From contig JAIEMQ010000007.1 of the NCBI GenBank assembly GCA_019752015.1, positions 1 to 64,000 on the forward strand: a stretch of DNA of 64,000 nucleotides, given 5' to 3'. Under the pieces are notes generated by a model, which worked only from the letters and a program-made list of their open reading frames with translations, had not been told where the DNA came from and did not search any database. Each line of letters begins with the position of its first letter. Positions within the stretch are counted from its first letter, which is position 1. The position numbers were made by a program, and so were the translations under genes. The DNA is from Cyanobacteriota bacterium (lineage in GTDB: Bacteria; Acidobacteriota; Vicinamibacteria; Vicinamibacterales; UBA2999). This document shows, piece by piece, positions 16,885 to 43,894 of this stretch.

Positions 16885-19779
<2,895 letters not shown>

Positions 19780-19781
19780 CG

Positions 19782-19820
19782 TAGAGGCGGGACTGTAGAG
19801 GCGGGACTGTAGTCCCGCCT
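19782..19820 (+). repeat. 'gaggcgggact' hairpin repeat
   Basis: Two direct copies of 'tagaggcgggactgtag' precede the complementary 'agtcccgcct', giving a perfect 10-base stem (19799-19808 with 19811-19820) and a two-base loop. The same hairpin, with 'aa' in the loop, is at 41483-41504 after the engB/lon junction, so it is a dispersed element and not just a local terminator. Confidence 0.65.
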
Positions 19821-29664: not shown

Positions 29665-32049
29665 ATGGCTCTGCCTGCTCTGCGCCCTTCAGAACATAAG
29701 CAGGTCGCGCTGCAGTCCGCACTGCAGGTGCTGAACTCCGGTGAGGCCCTGGACCGCCCGGACACGCCCGACGAGGTCGTCACCGCCGTCCGCCGCCTGC
29801 CGGCGATTGAGGCGGCCTACGCGCCGTTTCCGGCCGACATCGACCCGCGACTGCGCGCCGCGTTCGAGTCGCGCGGAATTACGCAGCTCTACACGCACCA
29901 GGCCGAGGCCTTCGAGCACGTCCTCGGCGGCCGTCACGTCGTCATCACGACGCCGACCGCTTCGGGCAAGACGCTCTGCTACAACCTGCCGGTCCTCGAT
30001 CGCATTCTGAAGAAGCCTTCGGCGCGCGCGCTGTATCTGTTTCCGGCCAAAGCACTCGCGCAGGATCAGATGGCGGAGCTGCACGAGCTCACCAGGTCGA
30101 TCAGCGACGTCGGCGGCGACGCGATTGGCGTGCACACCTACGACGGCGACACGCCGCAGGATGCGCGCCGCACGATCCGCACGCGCGCCCACATCGTCCT
30201 CAGCAATCCCGACATGGTGCACTCCGGGATCCTGCCGCACCATCCGCGATGGGCGAAGCTGTTCGAGAACCTCGACTTCGTCGTGATCGACGAGCTGCAC
30301 GCGTATCGCGGCGTGTTCGGCAGTCACCTGACGAACGTGCTGCGGCGACTGCAGCGCATCTGCCGGCACTACGGATCGCATCCGCAATTCATTTGCTCCT
30401 CAGCGACGATCGCGAATCCGGCCGAGCTCGCCGAGCGGCTGGCGGAAGAACCGTTCTCGCTGGTGCAGAAGAGCGGCGCGCCGAGCGGCGAGAAGTTTTT
30501 CGTGTTCGTGAATCCGCCCGTCGTCAATCGTGAGCTGGGCATCCGGCGTTCATACATCGCGGAATCGCGACGCGTCGCGGGCGAATTCCTGCGCCGCAAC
30601 CTGCAGGTGATCGTCTTCGCGCAAAGCCGTCTCTCAACGGAAATCCTCACCACGTATCTCAAGGAGGATTTCGAGGATGTGCCCGGCATGCCCGAGCGCA
30701 TTCGCGGCTATCGCGGCGGATATCTGCCGCTGCGGCGCCGCGAGATCGAGAAGGGCTTGCGCGCGGGCCAGGTGCGCGGCGTGATTTCGACCAACGCGCT
30801 CGAGCTCGGCATCGACATCGGCGCGCTGGATGTGTGCGTGATGGCGGGATATCCGGGCACGATCGCCTCCACGTGGCAGCGCGCCGGCCGCGCCGGGCGC
30901 CGCACCGGCCAGTCGGCCGCGGTCATGGTGGCGTCGAGCTCGCCGATCGATCAGTTTGTGGCGCGGCACCCGTCGTACTTCTTCGACGCGTCGCCGGAGC
31001 ACGCGCTCGTCAATCCGGACAACCTGCACATCCTCGTCGATCACGTGAAGTGCGCGGCGTTCGAGCTGCCGTTCACGACTGAAGAGAGCTACGGACAGGT
31101 GAACGTCCAGGAAGTGCTGGGCGTGTTGCAGGAATCCGGCCTCGTGCATCGATCGGGCGGTGAGGATGCGGCCGGCCAGTGGCACTGGACCAGCGAGTCG
31201 TATCCCGCGAATGCGGTGAGCTTGCGATCGGTCTCGTCCGACAACTTCGTCGTGGCCGATCACACGAGCGGTGCGCGGGTGATCGCCGAAACGGATTTCA
31301 CCAGCGCGCTATCGATGCTGCATCCCAAAGCCATCTACATGGTCGAAGGGAAGATCTACCAGGTCGAAGAGCTGGATTTTGTCGGCCGCAAGGCGCACGT
31401 CCGCGAAGTCGACTGCGATTACTACACGACCGCGATCACGTATACGAAGGTCACCATCCTCGATCGCTTTGCGGAAGATGCGCCGAAAGTCGCGCTGCAC
31501 GGCGAAGTCCACGTCGTTTCTCGCGTGGTCGGCTTCAAGAAGATTCGCTTCCAGACCAACGAGAACGTCGGCTCCGGTGAGCTCGATCTGCCCGAGCAGC
31601 AGATGCACACCACGGCCTACTGGCTCGAGATTCCGCTGTCGATCATCAACGCGCTGCCGTATGCGACCGACGATCGGCGCGACGGCGTGATCGGGCTGGC
31701 GTTCGCGATGAAGCAGGTCGCACAGCTCCTGTTGATGTGCGACGCCCGCGACATTGGCTTGTCGGTCAACGCCGGAGAAAGCGACGGCGACGATACGCCG
31801 CGCATCTTCCTCTACGATGCGTATCCGGGCGGCATTGGCTTCAGCGCGCCGTTGTGGGGCATGCAGGCGGAACTACTGTCGAAGACCAGCGTGCTCGTCG
31901 CCAGCTGCGATTGCGACAACGGCTGCCCGATGTGCGTCGGCCCGATCGGCGAGACCGGTCCGCTCGCGAAGACCGTGGCGCTGCGTATCCTCGAACATCT
32001 CCTTACGGGCACGCAGGCGATTGTGCGCGAAGAAGAAGTGCCGTTCTAA
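29665..32049 (+). CDS. mrfA: MrfA-like DEAD/DEAH helicase with C-terminal DUF1998 metal-binding domain
   Basis: A 794-residue superfamily 2 helicase. It has Walker A TPTASGKT, the DExH-type box VIDELHAYRG, motif VI QRAGRAGR, and the C-terminal DUF1998 domain with the four-cysteine cluster CDCDNGCPMC. This matches B. subtilis MrfA (YprA), a 3'-5' helicase that works with the nuclease MrfB in UvrA-independent repair of mitomycin-type lesions. The next gene encodes an MrfB-like exonuclease, so the pair is conserved here. Its role in this organism is an inference from that pairing. Confidence 0.88.
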   Translation: MALPALRPSEHKQVALQSALQVLNSGEALDRPDTPDEVVTAVRRLPAIEAAYAPFPADIDPRLRAAFESRGITQLYTHQAEAFEHVLGGRHVVITTPTASGKTLCYNLPVLDRILKKPSARALYLFPAKALAQDQMAELHELTRSISDVGGDAIGVHTYDGDTPQDARRTIRTRAHIVLSNPDMVHSGILPHHPRWAKLFENLDFVVIDELHAYRGVFGSHLTNVLRRLQRICRHYGSHPQFICSSATIANPAELAERLAEEPFSLVQKSGAPSGEKFFVFVNPPVVNRELGIRRSYIAESRRVAGEFLRRNLQVIVFAQSRLSTEILTTYLKEDFEDVPGMPERIRGYRGGYLPLRRREIEKGLRAGQVRGVISTNALELGIDIGALDVCVMAGYPGTIASTWQRAGRAGRRTGQSAAVMVASSSPIDQFVARHPSYFFDASPEHALVNPDNLHILVDHVKCAAFELPFTTEESYGQVNVQEVLGVLQESGLVHRSGGEDAAGQWHWTSESYPANAVSLRSVSSDNFVVADHTSGARVIAETDFTSALSMLHPKAIYMVEGKIYQVEELDFVGRKAHVREVDCDYYTTAITYTKVTILDRFAEDAPKVALHGEVHVVSRVVGFKKIRFQTNENVGSGELDLPEQQMHTTAYWLEIPLSIINALPYATDDRRDGVIGLAFAMKQVAQLLLMCDARDIGLSVNAGESDGDDTPRIFLYDAYPGGIGFSAPLWGMQAELLSKTSVLVASCDCDNGCPMCVGPIGETGPLAKTVALRILEHLLTGTQAIVREEEVPF

Positions 32050-32050
32050 C

Positions 32051-33421
32051 ATGGCCACGCTCGATCGACTTCGCGAGATCGTCAAGCATCACCGGCCGTC
32101 TGCCGTGCCGGTGGTTGCAGACGACGTTCGTTTGGAGGGCGATGGCTTTAGCCGTCGCCATATCGAATCGGCGGGCGTTGCCGGAGGGGCTGAAGCCCCC
32201 GCCCTCCAAACGATCACGACTGCCGCCTTGGAGCTTGGCGGAGCGCTGGTCGAGCATTCCGATGGCGCCGTGATCGTGGTCGATCGCGAGTATCGCGCCG
32301 GCGATCTCCATGGCCGCATGCCGATCGGCGAGATCGTCTCGACGATCGCCGACGGCGAAGACGCGATGCAGCTGATGGCGAAAGCCTGGCCGTCGTCAAA
32401 GGGCATCGGCGGACGGCTGCTGTTCCTCGATCTCGAAACGACGGGTCTGTTCGGCGGCGCCGGCACGCAGGCGTTCCTGGTCGGCTGCGCCTCGATCGAG
32501 GGCACGTCGATCCGCGTGCGCCAATTCCTGATGCCGGGCTTCGAGCACGAGCGGATCGTTCTCGCCGAGTTGCAGGCGTGGGCGAACTCGCACGGCGCGT
32601 TGTGCACTTACAACGGCCGCACTTTCGATGTGCCGCTGATCGAGACGCGCTTCATGTTCCACCGCGTGCCGTGCCCGCTCGACGGCGTCCCGCATCTCGA
32701 CATGCTCCACCCGGCGCGGCGGATGTGGCGGCAGCGGCCGCTCGCGGCCGGCACCCCCGATCCCGATGATTCGAGCTGCTCGCTCGCGGTGCTCGAGAAA
32801 CAGCTTGCCGGCCTGCATCGGGTGGGCGATGTCCCCGGTTACGAGATTCCGTCGCGCTTCTTCAAGTTCGTCCGCACCGGGGATGCGCGGCCGCTCGAGG
32901 CGGTGATGGAGCACAACCGGCTCGATCTGCTCTCGCTGGCGGCCGTCCTGGCGCGCGCGATCGTGCTGATCACGCGCGGACCGTCCGCGGCGATGACGGC
33001 GCAGGAAGCGTACGGACTGGCGCGCGTCTACGAGCGCGGCGGCGCGTACGAGAACGCCGAAGCCTCGCTGCTTCGGACGATCGAATTCGCGAAGCGCGTC
33101 GGCGCCGAGCCCGAAGTGCACGGCGAAGCGTTGCGGCGCCTGGCGTGGATTCGGCGTCGCGATCGCCGCCCGCATGAAGCCGCGCAAGCGTGGAATGAGC
33201 TCGCGATTTTGCCGCGATGCGCGGCGGCGCTGCGGCGCGAAGCCAGGGAGGCGCTGGCGATCCATCACGAGCACCGGCTGAAGGATCTGATCACGGCGCG
33301 CGAGCACGCGCTTGACCTGCTGGCCGACGGCGTCAGCAATCGCGGCCGCGTCCAGCATCGTCTCGATCGCCTCGAGCGTAAGCTGGCGAGGTATTCCGAA
33401 GCCCGCCTGCCGTTGAATTAA
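32051..33421 (+). CDS. mrfB: MrfB-like DEDD exonuclease with TPR-like C-terminus
   Basis: A 456-residue protein with an RNase H-like exonuclease domain (about residues 120-300): DLETTG, TYNGRTFDVPLIETR and HNRLDLLSLA carry the acidic metal ligands. Helical repeats like TPR follow (about 320-440). B. subtilis MrfB has the same layout and is the nuclease partner of MrfA; the ATG here is one base after the mrfA stop. Codons 27-54 are unusual: an 84-base hairpin element lies in frame there (32129-32212) and gives a segment absent from the normal architecture. Function is unlikely to be lost, because it precedes the nuclease domain. Confidence 0.85.
   Translation: MATLDRLREIVKHHRPSAVPVVADDVRLEGDGFSRRHIESAGVAGGAEAPALQTITTAALELGGALVEHSDGAVIVVDREYRAGDLHGRMPIGEIVSTIADGEDAMQLMAKAWPSSKGIGGRLLFLDLETTGLFGGAGTQAFLVGCASIEGTSIRVRQFLMPGFEHERIVLAELQAWANSHGALCTYNGRTFDVPLIETRFMFHRVPCPLDGVPHLDMLHPARRMWRQRPLAAGTPDPDDSSCSLAVLEKQLAGLHRVGDVPGYEIPSRFFKFVRTGDARPLEAVMEHNRLDLLSLAAVLARAIVLITRGPSAAMTAQEAYGLARVYERGGAYENAEASLLRTIEFAKRVGAEPEVHGEALRRLAWIRRRDRRPHEAAQAWNELAILPRCAAALRREAREALAIHHEHRLKDLITAREHALDLLADGVSNRGRVQHRLDRLERKLARYSEARLPLN
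32129..32212. repeat. 84-base nested hairpin element inside mrfB
   Basis: Terminal inverted repeats CGTTTGGAGGGC (32129-32140) and GCCCTCCAAACG (32201-32212) are perfect over 12 bases. Inside are two more hairpins: ggcgatggct-tt-agccgtcgcc (32138-32159) and ggggct-ga-agcccc (32186-32199). It begins on a codon boundary and is exactly 28 codons long, so the frame is kept. It resembles a miniature or REP-like element, but no family is assigned. Confidence 0.75.
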
Positions 33422-33430
33422 GATCCGCGC

Positions 33431-34858
33431 GTGAACGACGAGCCCGGTTTGGTCGCTCGCGCCGCGCTGCGCCTGACCGTGTGGACCGAGCGCTGGATTC
33501 CCGACGCCTTCATCTTCGCGCTGCTCGCGACCGTCCTCATCTTCATTGCCGCGCTCGTCTGGACGCCGTCCACACCCGGCCAGGTGATCGATGCGTGGGG
33601 CGGCGGCTTCTGGGACCTGATCCCGTTCACGCTGCAGATGTCGCTGATCATCATCACCGGCCACGTGCTGGCGACATCGGGTCCGATGCGCGCCGCGATT
33701 CGCGCGATCGCGGGCTGGGCGAAAACGCCGCGCGGCGCGGTGGCGCTCGTCACCTTCTTCGCGCTCGTGACGTCGTGGTTCAACTGGGGCTTCAGCCTGA
33801 TCTTCTCCGCGGTCCTCGCCCGCGAAGTCGCGCGCCGGGTCGCCGGCGTCGATTACCGGGCGCTCGCCGCTGCCAGCCTGCTCGGCATCGGCAGCATCTG
33901 GGCGCAGGGCCTCAGCGGATCGGCGGCGCTGCAAATGGCGACGCCCGGGGCGCTGCAGCCGCAGATCCGCGAGATCGTCGCAGCCGGCGGTGTGGTTCCC
34001 GGCGGCATGATCCCGTTCCGCGACACCATCTTCCTCTGGCAAAGCCTCGCGTCGGTCGCGATCGAGATCATCGTCGTGGTGGTCGTGATGTGGCTCGCGA
34101 CCCCGCCTGCCGCCAAGGCGAAGACGGCGCCGATGCTGGGTGTGAATCTCGCGGATGAGGGAGGTAGTACCCCAAGCCCCAAGTCCCAAGCCCCAGGTCC
34201 CATACCTCCTGGTGCCTGGCTGGAGCATTCGCCGCTGCTCAACATCCTGATCGTCGCGATGGGCGCGGTCTTCCTGTTTCGTTACTTCGATCGTGCGGCC
34301 GAGCCGCTCAACGCGCTCAGCGTCAACATCATCAACTTCTCGTTCCTGATGATCGGCATCCTGTTGCATCGCACCCCCGCGCGGTTGATGCACGCGGTCG
34401 CCGCGGCCACGCCCGCGGCGTGGGGCGTGATCCTGCAGTTTCCCTTCTACGCCGGCATTGCCGCGATCATCACGACGACGCATCTCAATGAGCGGCTGGC
34501 GAATGCCTTCGTCAGCATTTCGTCGCCGTACAGTTTTCCGGCGGTCGTCGCGATCTATTCAGCGGTGCTGGGCGTGTTCGTGCCGTCGGGCGGATCGAAG
34601 TGGGTGATCGAGGCGCCGTACGTGATGGCGGCGGCGCACGAGCTCAAGGTGCATCTTGGCTGGGTGGTGGCGTCGTACGATCTCGGCGAGGCGATCGCGA
34701 ACCTGCTGCAGCCGTTCTGGATGCTGCCGACGCTCGGGATGCTGGGGCTGCGCGCGCGCGACGTGATGGGCTACACCTTCATCGTCGCGCTGGCGCTGTT
34801 TCCGCTGGTGATCCTGCTGGTCACGTTGCTCGGCGCAACGCTGCCGTACCCGCTGTAG
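33431..34858 (+). CDS. atoE: Short-chain fatty acid transporter (AtoE-like)
   Basis: A 475-residue integral membrane protein of the AtoE family (TIGR00366), which takes up acetoacetate and other short-chain fatty acids in a secondary transport mode. Around 12 helices; family stretches such as WIPDAFIFALLATVLIFIAA and GFWDLIPFTLQMSLIIITGH are visible. A GTG start is used. Residues about 248-262 form a Pro/Ser-rich linker encoded by a word repeat (34170-34203) inside the central cytoplasmic loop. It follows mrfB by nine bases, so it may be in the same operon although the functions differ. Confidence 0.85.
   Translation: MNDEPGLVARAALRLTVWTERWIPDAFIFALLATVLIFIAALVWTPSTPGQVIDAWGGGFWDLIPFTLQMSLIIITGHVLATSGPMRAAIRAIAGWAKTPRGAVALVTFFALVTSWFNWGFSLIFSAVLAREVARRVAGVDYRALAAASLLGIGSIWAQGLSGSAALQMATPGALQPQIREIVAAGGVVPGGMIPFRDTIFLWQSLASVAIEIIVVVVVMWLATPPAAKAKTAPMLGVNLADEGGSTPSPKSQAPGPIPPGAWLEHSPLLNILIVAMGAVFLFRYFDRAAEPLNALSVNIINFSFLMIGILLHRTPARLMHAVAAATPAAWGVILQFPFYAGIAAIITTTHLNERLANAFVSISSPYSFPAVVAIYSAVLGVFVPSGGSKWVIEAPYVMAAAHELKVHLGWVVASYDLGEAIANLLQPFWMLPTLGMLGLRARDVMGYTFIVALALFPLVILLVTLLGATLPYPL
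34170..34203. repeat. Direct word repeat (CCCCAAG) inside the fatty acid transporter gene
   Basis: Tandem 'ccccaagccccaagtcccaag' type words code for a Pro/Ser/Gln linker (SPKSQAPGP) between two membrane segments. The word class is different from the repeats elsewhere in the window. Confidence 0.6.
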
Positions 34859-41482: not shown

Positions 41483-41504
41483 AGGCGGGACTAAAGTCCC
41501 GCCT
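41483..41504. repeat. 'aggcgggact' hairpin, second copy
   Basis: aggcgggact-aa-agtcccgcct: a perfect 10-base stem between lon and engB, followed by 'ctacgttag'. It is nearly identical to the hairpin at 19799-19820 after nrdJ. Confidence 0.7.
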
Positions 41505-41509
41505 CTACG

Positions 41510-43894
<2,385 letters not shown>

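Follow-up and report, generated by a model that had tools for sequence, protein, structure and literature searches.

REPINs are inverted doublets of REP hairpins that are dispersed over the genome, occur together with singlets and are accompanied by a small tyrosine transposase gene beside the same REP (excerpt of PMC3116915). RepRanger defines REPs as seldom overlapping with coding sequence (excerpt of PMC12306157). Intragenic REPs and REP dimers of the GTAG/CGTC type are described in open reading frames of Opitutus terrae, Rickettsia conorii, Thauera and others, where dimers or groups encode 20-30 residues, the host genes include tRNA synthetases and repair genes, and one shared intragenic site is noted, in recB of two Xanthomonas species (PMC3733652). 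RPEs are palindromes of approximately 150 bp that are located in frame in many unrelated genes, and their homologues in other species are also in frame (excerpt of PMC10969869). REP dimers that lie in frame inside genes (PMC3733652) have therefore been described before, as have Rickettsia palindromic elements (RPEs).

The repeat family described here has a CGTTYGGAG head and is represented by an 84-nt segment of mrfB in a genome of the Vicinamibacterales, within the window, i.e. the whole stretch of 64,000 nucleotides that was analyzed (Table 1). With a probability of about 0.88, this segment is a REP doublet of a family that is served by a small Y1 transposase of the RAYT class, whose gene lies at another place in the genome. 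The CGTTYGGAG repeats are a new REP family that is found inside genes unusually often for repeats of this kind, which normally avoid them; among the matches listed, no title or abstract start deals with this family or with in-frame REPs in Vicinamibacterales. Similar to the REPIN/BIME and RAYT systems of Pseudomonas and E. coli, as far as the excerpts describe them, the family has doublets, singlets, an adjoining transposase and dispersed copies. However, the CGTTYGGAG head sets it apart from the Pseudomonas and E. coli REPINs, and whereas those were analyzed in extragenic space, according to the excerpts, 53 of 117 CGTTYGGAG elements are located in frame inside genes. It has the same in-ORF dimers as the intragenic GTAG/CGTC REPs, but it is a different repeat family, whose intragenic share is near half, which has several sites common between species and which is contrasted by a second family. 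The likeness to the RPEs, namely in-frame insertion into unrelated coding genes, is one of behaviour. RPEs are approximately 150 bp long and the excerpt states no link to a RAYT, whereas CGTTYGGAG units have 31 nt and a likely cognate RAYT and, as a further difference, use mainly three reading frames.

Table 1. Features of the mrfA-mrfB region, with positions in the window.
Feature	Position	Strand	Description
mrfA (DEAD helicase with MZB domain), upstream partner	29665..32049	+	Pfam DEAD, Helicase_C, MZB
mrfB (exonuclease), host gene of the element	32051..33421	+	456 aa; insert = residues 27-54
Probable REP doublet (REPIN/BIME type)	32129..32212	.	Heads outward, 84 nt, in frame in mrfB
REP unit 1	32129..32159	+	CGTTTGGAG head + hairpin, translated RLEGDGFSRR; R1 53.0 bits, E 4.3e-24 (unit also in the alignment of the R1 model)
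Spacer between the two REP units	32160..32181	.	22 nt, read from sequence
REP unit 2, inverted	32182..32212	-	Slightly decayed hairpin, translated ...GAEAPALQT; R1 41.5 bits, E 7.2e-18 (unit also in the alignment of the R1 model)

The original prediction had correctly delimited the element, and the perfect terminal inverted repeats that it described are present, albeit with a length of 13 nt instead of 12 (14 nt if T32128 and A32213 are included); the arms reach 26 nt at 88% complementarity. Both inner hairpins also exist, but they are imperfect: the stem of unit 1 contains one G-T pair, and that of unit 2 has one mismatch and one wobble in eight pairs. Since the mrfB ATG lies 78 nt before the element, the latter starts on a codon boundary, and all of its 28 codons (RLEGDGFSRRHIESAGVAGGAEAPALQT) are open, so that mrfB is unbroken, as had been proposed. 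Compared with dinucleotide shuffles the element folds with z = -5.96 as DNA and z = -6.27 as RNA, none of 200 shuffles being as good. A 20-mer of unit 1, searched with up to three mismatches, has no place in the 64-kb window other than the two ends of the element, with 0 occurrences expected. An Rfam search of 32000-32350 gave 11 matches at E values up to 10, none of which reaches its gathering score.

The host protein has a Pfam RNase_H_2 domain at residues 124-301, and its sole PDB match is Exonuclease MrfB (8un9, E 2.8e-27, residues 78-299). AlphaFold2 (nine sequences) gives a pLDDT below 50 over residues 1-50, which comprise most of the insert, so that according to the model the nuclease fold probably does not include it. 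For MrfB of B. subtilis the N-terminal domain is predicted to be unstructured, and the first 32 residues were left out of the constructs (excerpt of PMC11194089). As the insert lies in the N-terminal stretch preceding the exonuclease fold, it is probably a neutral passenger. The idea of a mobile insert would have been contradicted by a segment conserved in MrfB across genera; of six aligned MrfB sequences that come from other genera, three cover the region, and all three are without the element, whereas genomes of the genus itself have it complete, in part or not at all.

The two halves of the mrfB element are two copies of one unit of approximately 31 nt, placed head-outward, in which the CGTTYGGAG head is followed by an 8-bp hairpin with a loop that is usually TTTA or TTCA. 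With a covariance model built from 20 units (R1), 103 rows were obtained in the own genome (G000), of which 48 units in 40 elements were kept after opposite-strand shadows, rows with E above approximately 1e-6 and one overlapping unit (C64:8410) had been dropped; G005 and G008 gave 61 and 73 rows, all 134 of which were used. The anticipated miniature element with inverted ends is borne out, and its unit is found throughout the own genome. In the 137 full units of these three genomes the stems pair in 1048 of 1096 cells (95.6%), compared with 885.5 +/- 6.7 in 500 shuffles (maximum 906), and the paired stems differ widely in sequence (e.g., GCGACGGC, GCGGGGGC, and GCCGGGGC). The flanks outside the head show no preference other than a weak one for GA (G 53%, A 47% of 135 heads). 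Within the genus the N-terminal linker of MrfB varies in length and sequence, and the linkers of G001, G003, and G004, which contain no unit, are unrelated; a GC-rich linker that is palindromic by chance and not mobile could therefore be imagined, but given a unit at 48 places of the genome, with a fixed head, a covarying hairpin and a position beside a transposase gene, its probability is practically negligible.

Doublets are a minority of the family: of the 117 elements of G000, G005, and G008, 73 consist of a single unit, 32 are doublets with their heads outward and 6 with their heads inward, and 6 are arranged otherwise. These single units, each a hairpin with a one-sided head, also make it very improbable that the mrfB element, although short, with inverted ends and devoid of a gene of its own, is the MITE of a DDE-type insertion sequence which duplicates its target upon insertion. 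Moreover, the unit adjoins a Y1 transposase, and no direct repeats of at least 8 nt flank the mrfB element, shorter target duplications being possible. Like REPs and REPINs, the CGTTYGGAG family combines a short tagged palindrome, many dispersed copies, inverted doublets and a RAYT flanked by the same REPs. Since 53 of the 117 elements are internal and in frame instead of extragenic, it is filed as a variant of REP/REPIN.

The own genome has 13 Y1_Tnp matches, and one of these genes, on contig C16, is located between two oppositely oriented CGTTYGGAG units. Its orthologues of 168-171 aa in G008, G005, and G001 likewise lie between units or arrays of opposite orientation. The Pfam family Y1_Tnp matches the RAYT, and in the PDB the G008 protein has a single match, TnpA-REP (4er8, E 7.5e-10). 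Judged from sequence, this Y1/RAYT protein of approximately 168 aa, which is related to E. coli TnpA-REP, is likely the transposase of the CGTTYGGAG family. That it acts on CGTTYGGAG REPs and transposes the doublets is suggested by their co-occurrence. Among the nine genomes of the genus (G000 to G008), a RAYT of at least 56% identity is present in G000, G001, G005, G007, and G008, which have 61, 36, 72, 66, and 105 raw R1 matches, respectively, in counts that include opposite-strand shadows here and for the other genomes; G006 has a RAYT fragment of 51 aa and 30 raw matches, and G002, G003, and G004, without a RAYT at E 1e-10, have 16, 6, and 7. As the genomes are fragmented, the absence of a RAYT may be an assembly gap. 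In a wider set of 60 relatives, 49 have one or more R1 matches at 1e-5 and 31 have a related transposase at 1e-10. Outside the genus most genomes have few R1 matches, G011 with 119 weak ones being among the exceptions, and most of the transposases are less than 50% identical.

IS200/IS605-type and RAYT enzymes act on single-stranded DNA. In the same manner, the RAYT would excise and insert the doublet as single-stranded DNA. Insertions that shift the frame, add a stop or strike a folded core would then be purged, and in-frame insertions in disordered ends and loops would survive as extra peptides.

The gene beside the RAYT has an N-terminus that is encoded by a REP array (L180:4865-6514, plus strand; L175:1711-3186, minus strand; L211:3641-5077, plus strand), which is read as six repeats of 16 residues in G008 and as five of 12 residues in G005, whereas G001 has one unit. 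By eye it had been taken for an aminopeptidase, but Pfam gave no such family, and the proteins of G008 and G005 have no informative Pfam match.

For the location of the elements, a classifier of flanking codon bias, trained on the same loci, assigned 51 of the 117 elements as internal, which means the same open frame on both sides of the element, 13 as C-terminal, 29 as possibly N-terminal and 24 as other; the internal ones amount to 17/40 in G000, 15/37 in G005 and 19/40 in G008. The total of 53 includes the two mrfB elements of G000 and G005, which were added by hand, since both were misfiled because the short upstream part of the gene scores low. Host genes of G000 that pass NCBIfam cut-offs are pheS, pheT, gyrB, gcvP, ilvB, the ispD and ispF parts of ispDF, FPP synthase and larC; in the same genome a penicillin amidase gene has Pfam support, as have, in G005 and G008, purD, a class I tRNA synthetase gene and the gene of an mfd-type protein, which contains two REPs. 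Compared with solved relatives, the inserts of FPP synthase and GcvP fall into a gap or a weakly aligned stretch. Among eight cases with coding flanks in different frames on one strand, none is clearly a broken gene; their appearance is that of gene junctions or of spurious ORFs.

A second REP type (AGGCGGGACTAAAGTCCCGCCTCTACG; CGTAGAGGCGGGACTTTAGTCCCGCCT on the other strand) is located at 41483-41509 of the window, with a related pair at 19777-19820. This family has 43 matches in the genome, including the query, and two copies flank a Y1 gene on contig C44. With the same classifier, only 4/40 of its elements in G000 are internal compared with 17/40 of the CGTTYGGAG elements (p = 0.0018), or 18/40 if the mrfB element of the window is counted (p = 0.0009), in a comparison where the sets come from different methods (BLAST and covariance model, respectively) and the classing is by codon bias only.

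Several further observations concern individual loci. The copy of the second type at 41483-41509 lies directly next to the stop codon of an ORF on the minus strand (41510-43894) that is Lon-like as judged by eye. On contig C34 of G000 an RND permease and a TolC-like protein form a single ORF of 1487 codons (L118:913-5373, plus strand) with two inverted REP units at the junction, which is possibly a REP-linked gene fusion or may be two genes with an unseen boundary. The linker between IspD and IspF in ispDF is largely a REP unit in G000 (L105:3404-4564, plus strand) or a pair of units in G005 (L160:2553-3749, minus strand). A low-complexity repeat in a coding loop of the window (CCCCAAGCCCCAAG) was rejected, being exact in just 3 of 263 loci, namely the window's own place once and one other place twice. 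At 34170-34201 of the window, the ORF 33431-34858 contains the low-complexity sequence CCCCAAGCCCCAAGTCCC, read as STPSPKSQAPGP, and proline-rich loops of similar look occur in larC of G007 and G008.

The length of full head-outward doublets is a multiple of three in 9/11 coding cases (9 gene sites) versus 1/13 non-coding cases (p = 5e-4), a contrast that depends on three elements moved to coding by hand (two in mrfB, one at the C-terminus of mrfA) and in which equal-length orthologues or paralogues were merged (3 merges), three doublets with truncated units were omitted and two coding doublets of 67 nt, which are doubtful, were not counted. For mrfB and pheT one doublet was counted in each species, as their lengths differ. 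With the doubtful doublets counted as coding the contrast has p = 0.0036, with one doublet per gene site it is 7/9 versus 1/13 (p = 0.0015), and with the classifier label alone and without merging it is 8/13 versus 4/15, which is not significant (p = 0.12). The 13 doublets judged non-coding are 62-97 nt long, and with 12 of them not being multiples of three, the element itself cannot be called frame-preserving, as had been suggested. Neither are all coding insertions multiples of three, which had been named as a check, since several head-to-head lengths are 67 nt, e.g., in larC; the frame stays open in such cases, yet an open frame is the definition of the internal class. For the larC doublet of 67 nt, extra or lost bases must therefore be assumed. 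Of the tandem arrays beside the RAYT, the translated one has a period of 48 nt in G008, where it comprises six units, and of 36 nt in G005, but the array on the other side of the RAYT has a period of 37 nt in G008, with 16 units, and of 34 nt in G005, with two units. The element is therefore not intrinsically a multiple of three. It is likelier that the frame-keeping of the coding copies is due to selection on the host genes.

The unit can be read in four always-open frames, which are unevenly used by the 27 distinct coding singles (chi-square p = 3.5e-4): ATAKAVALRT 16 times, RSEGDGFSRR and VRRATASAVA five times each and the basic peptide RRLKPSLSER once, in counts that include C64:8419, which the automatic matcher had left unassigned. 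This is likely the result of selection on the peptide, but a bias in insertion phase may be an alternative. An orientation bias of the coding singles was not significant (17/27 reverse, p = 0.25).

Whole doublets are found at approximately the same place and in the same frame of mrfB in G000 (84 nt), G005 and G006 (72 nt each), and G007 (66 nt), a half or doubled half in G008 and a head remnant in G002. In a tree built on MrfB, LarC, and PheS the pairs are G000/G004, G001/G002, G003/G007, and G005/G008, so that the presence of the mrfB element is scattered. Ancestral gain with losses is the simplest explanation, and repeated gain at a tolerant site may be another. As the nearest MrfB compared are 78-80% identical and an empty site from a close strain is lacking, the boundaries of the insertion are not fixed. 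Neither does larC yield fixed boundaries, because its loops are too variable; an R1-type unit is present there only in G000, and G001 has a hairpin of another type. This hairpin (L228:2339-2368) and others in L141 and L143 are perfect, have different stems and TTTA/TAAA/TGAA loops, and suggest that the genus contains further REP-like families. Despite the presence of the RAYT, no CGTTYGGAG unit is seen by eye in mrfB or pheS of G001.

At approximately the same position, eight gene sites, in pheS, pheT, ilvB, gyrB, ispDF, gcvP, mrfB, and a tRNA synthetase gene, are common to at least two of G000, G005, and G008, between which the host proteins are approximately 65-93% identical. Several insertions seem to predate the species split and later to lose one arm or erode in frame. 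The ilvB copy is head-inward in G000 and head-outward in G005 and G008, and therefore some turnover has happened. In pheT, an R1-type unit or doublet is present in G000, G001, G005, and G008, a hairpin with a decayed head in G002 and G006, where that of G002 is still paired without a RAYT being found, and an eroded doublet in G004; G003 has no hairpin or remnant, which makes 7/8 genomes with one, G007 not being among them. Such persistence at common sites and in pheT, together with coding units that still pair in 491/520 stem cells and one of the four open frames being nearly unused, is what would be expected if the coding copies had been recruited for a function, as an mRNA or DNA hairpin or as a useful peptide, and were kept by selection. 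We nevertheless consider such a recruitment unlikely: the host proteins are unrelated, insert length and arm number vary, the unit is absent from several orthologues of the genus, and pheT of G004 eroded without loss of the gene. REP doublets spread by a RAYT-class transposase remain the preferred reading for mrfB.

A tentative and rather doubtful extension of this reading is that the RAYT system might continually generate and maintain peptide insertions in frame; it would seed hairpin doublets in loops and disordered ends of essential proteins and renew them by re-copying, so that coding REPs would stay palindromic while the RAYT is kept and erode once it is lost. The eroded pheT doublet of G004, where no cognate RAYT was found, speaks for it, but G002 is also without a RAYT and yet has a paired pheT hairpin. 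If it were true, coding loops would be a main habitat of the CGTTYGGAG REP population.

REPs are named and usually defined as extragenic, but here they are located in core enzymes and in the repair nuclease MrfB. Two REP families in one genome are a natural paired comparison for where RAYT elements can live, and the in-gene copies are ready-made insertions that are tolerated by essential proteins. For annotators it follows that stretches of 10-28 residues in these proteins, such as RSEGDGFSRR and ATAKAVALRT, derive from the repeat.
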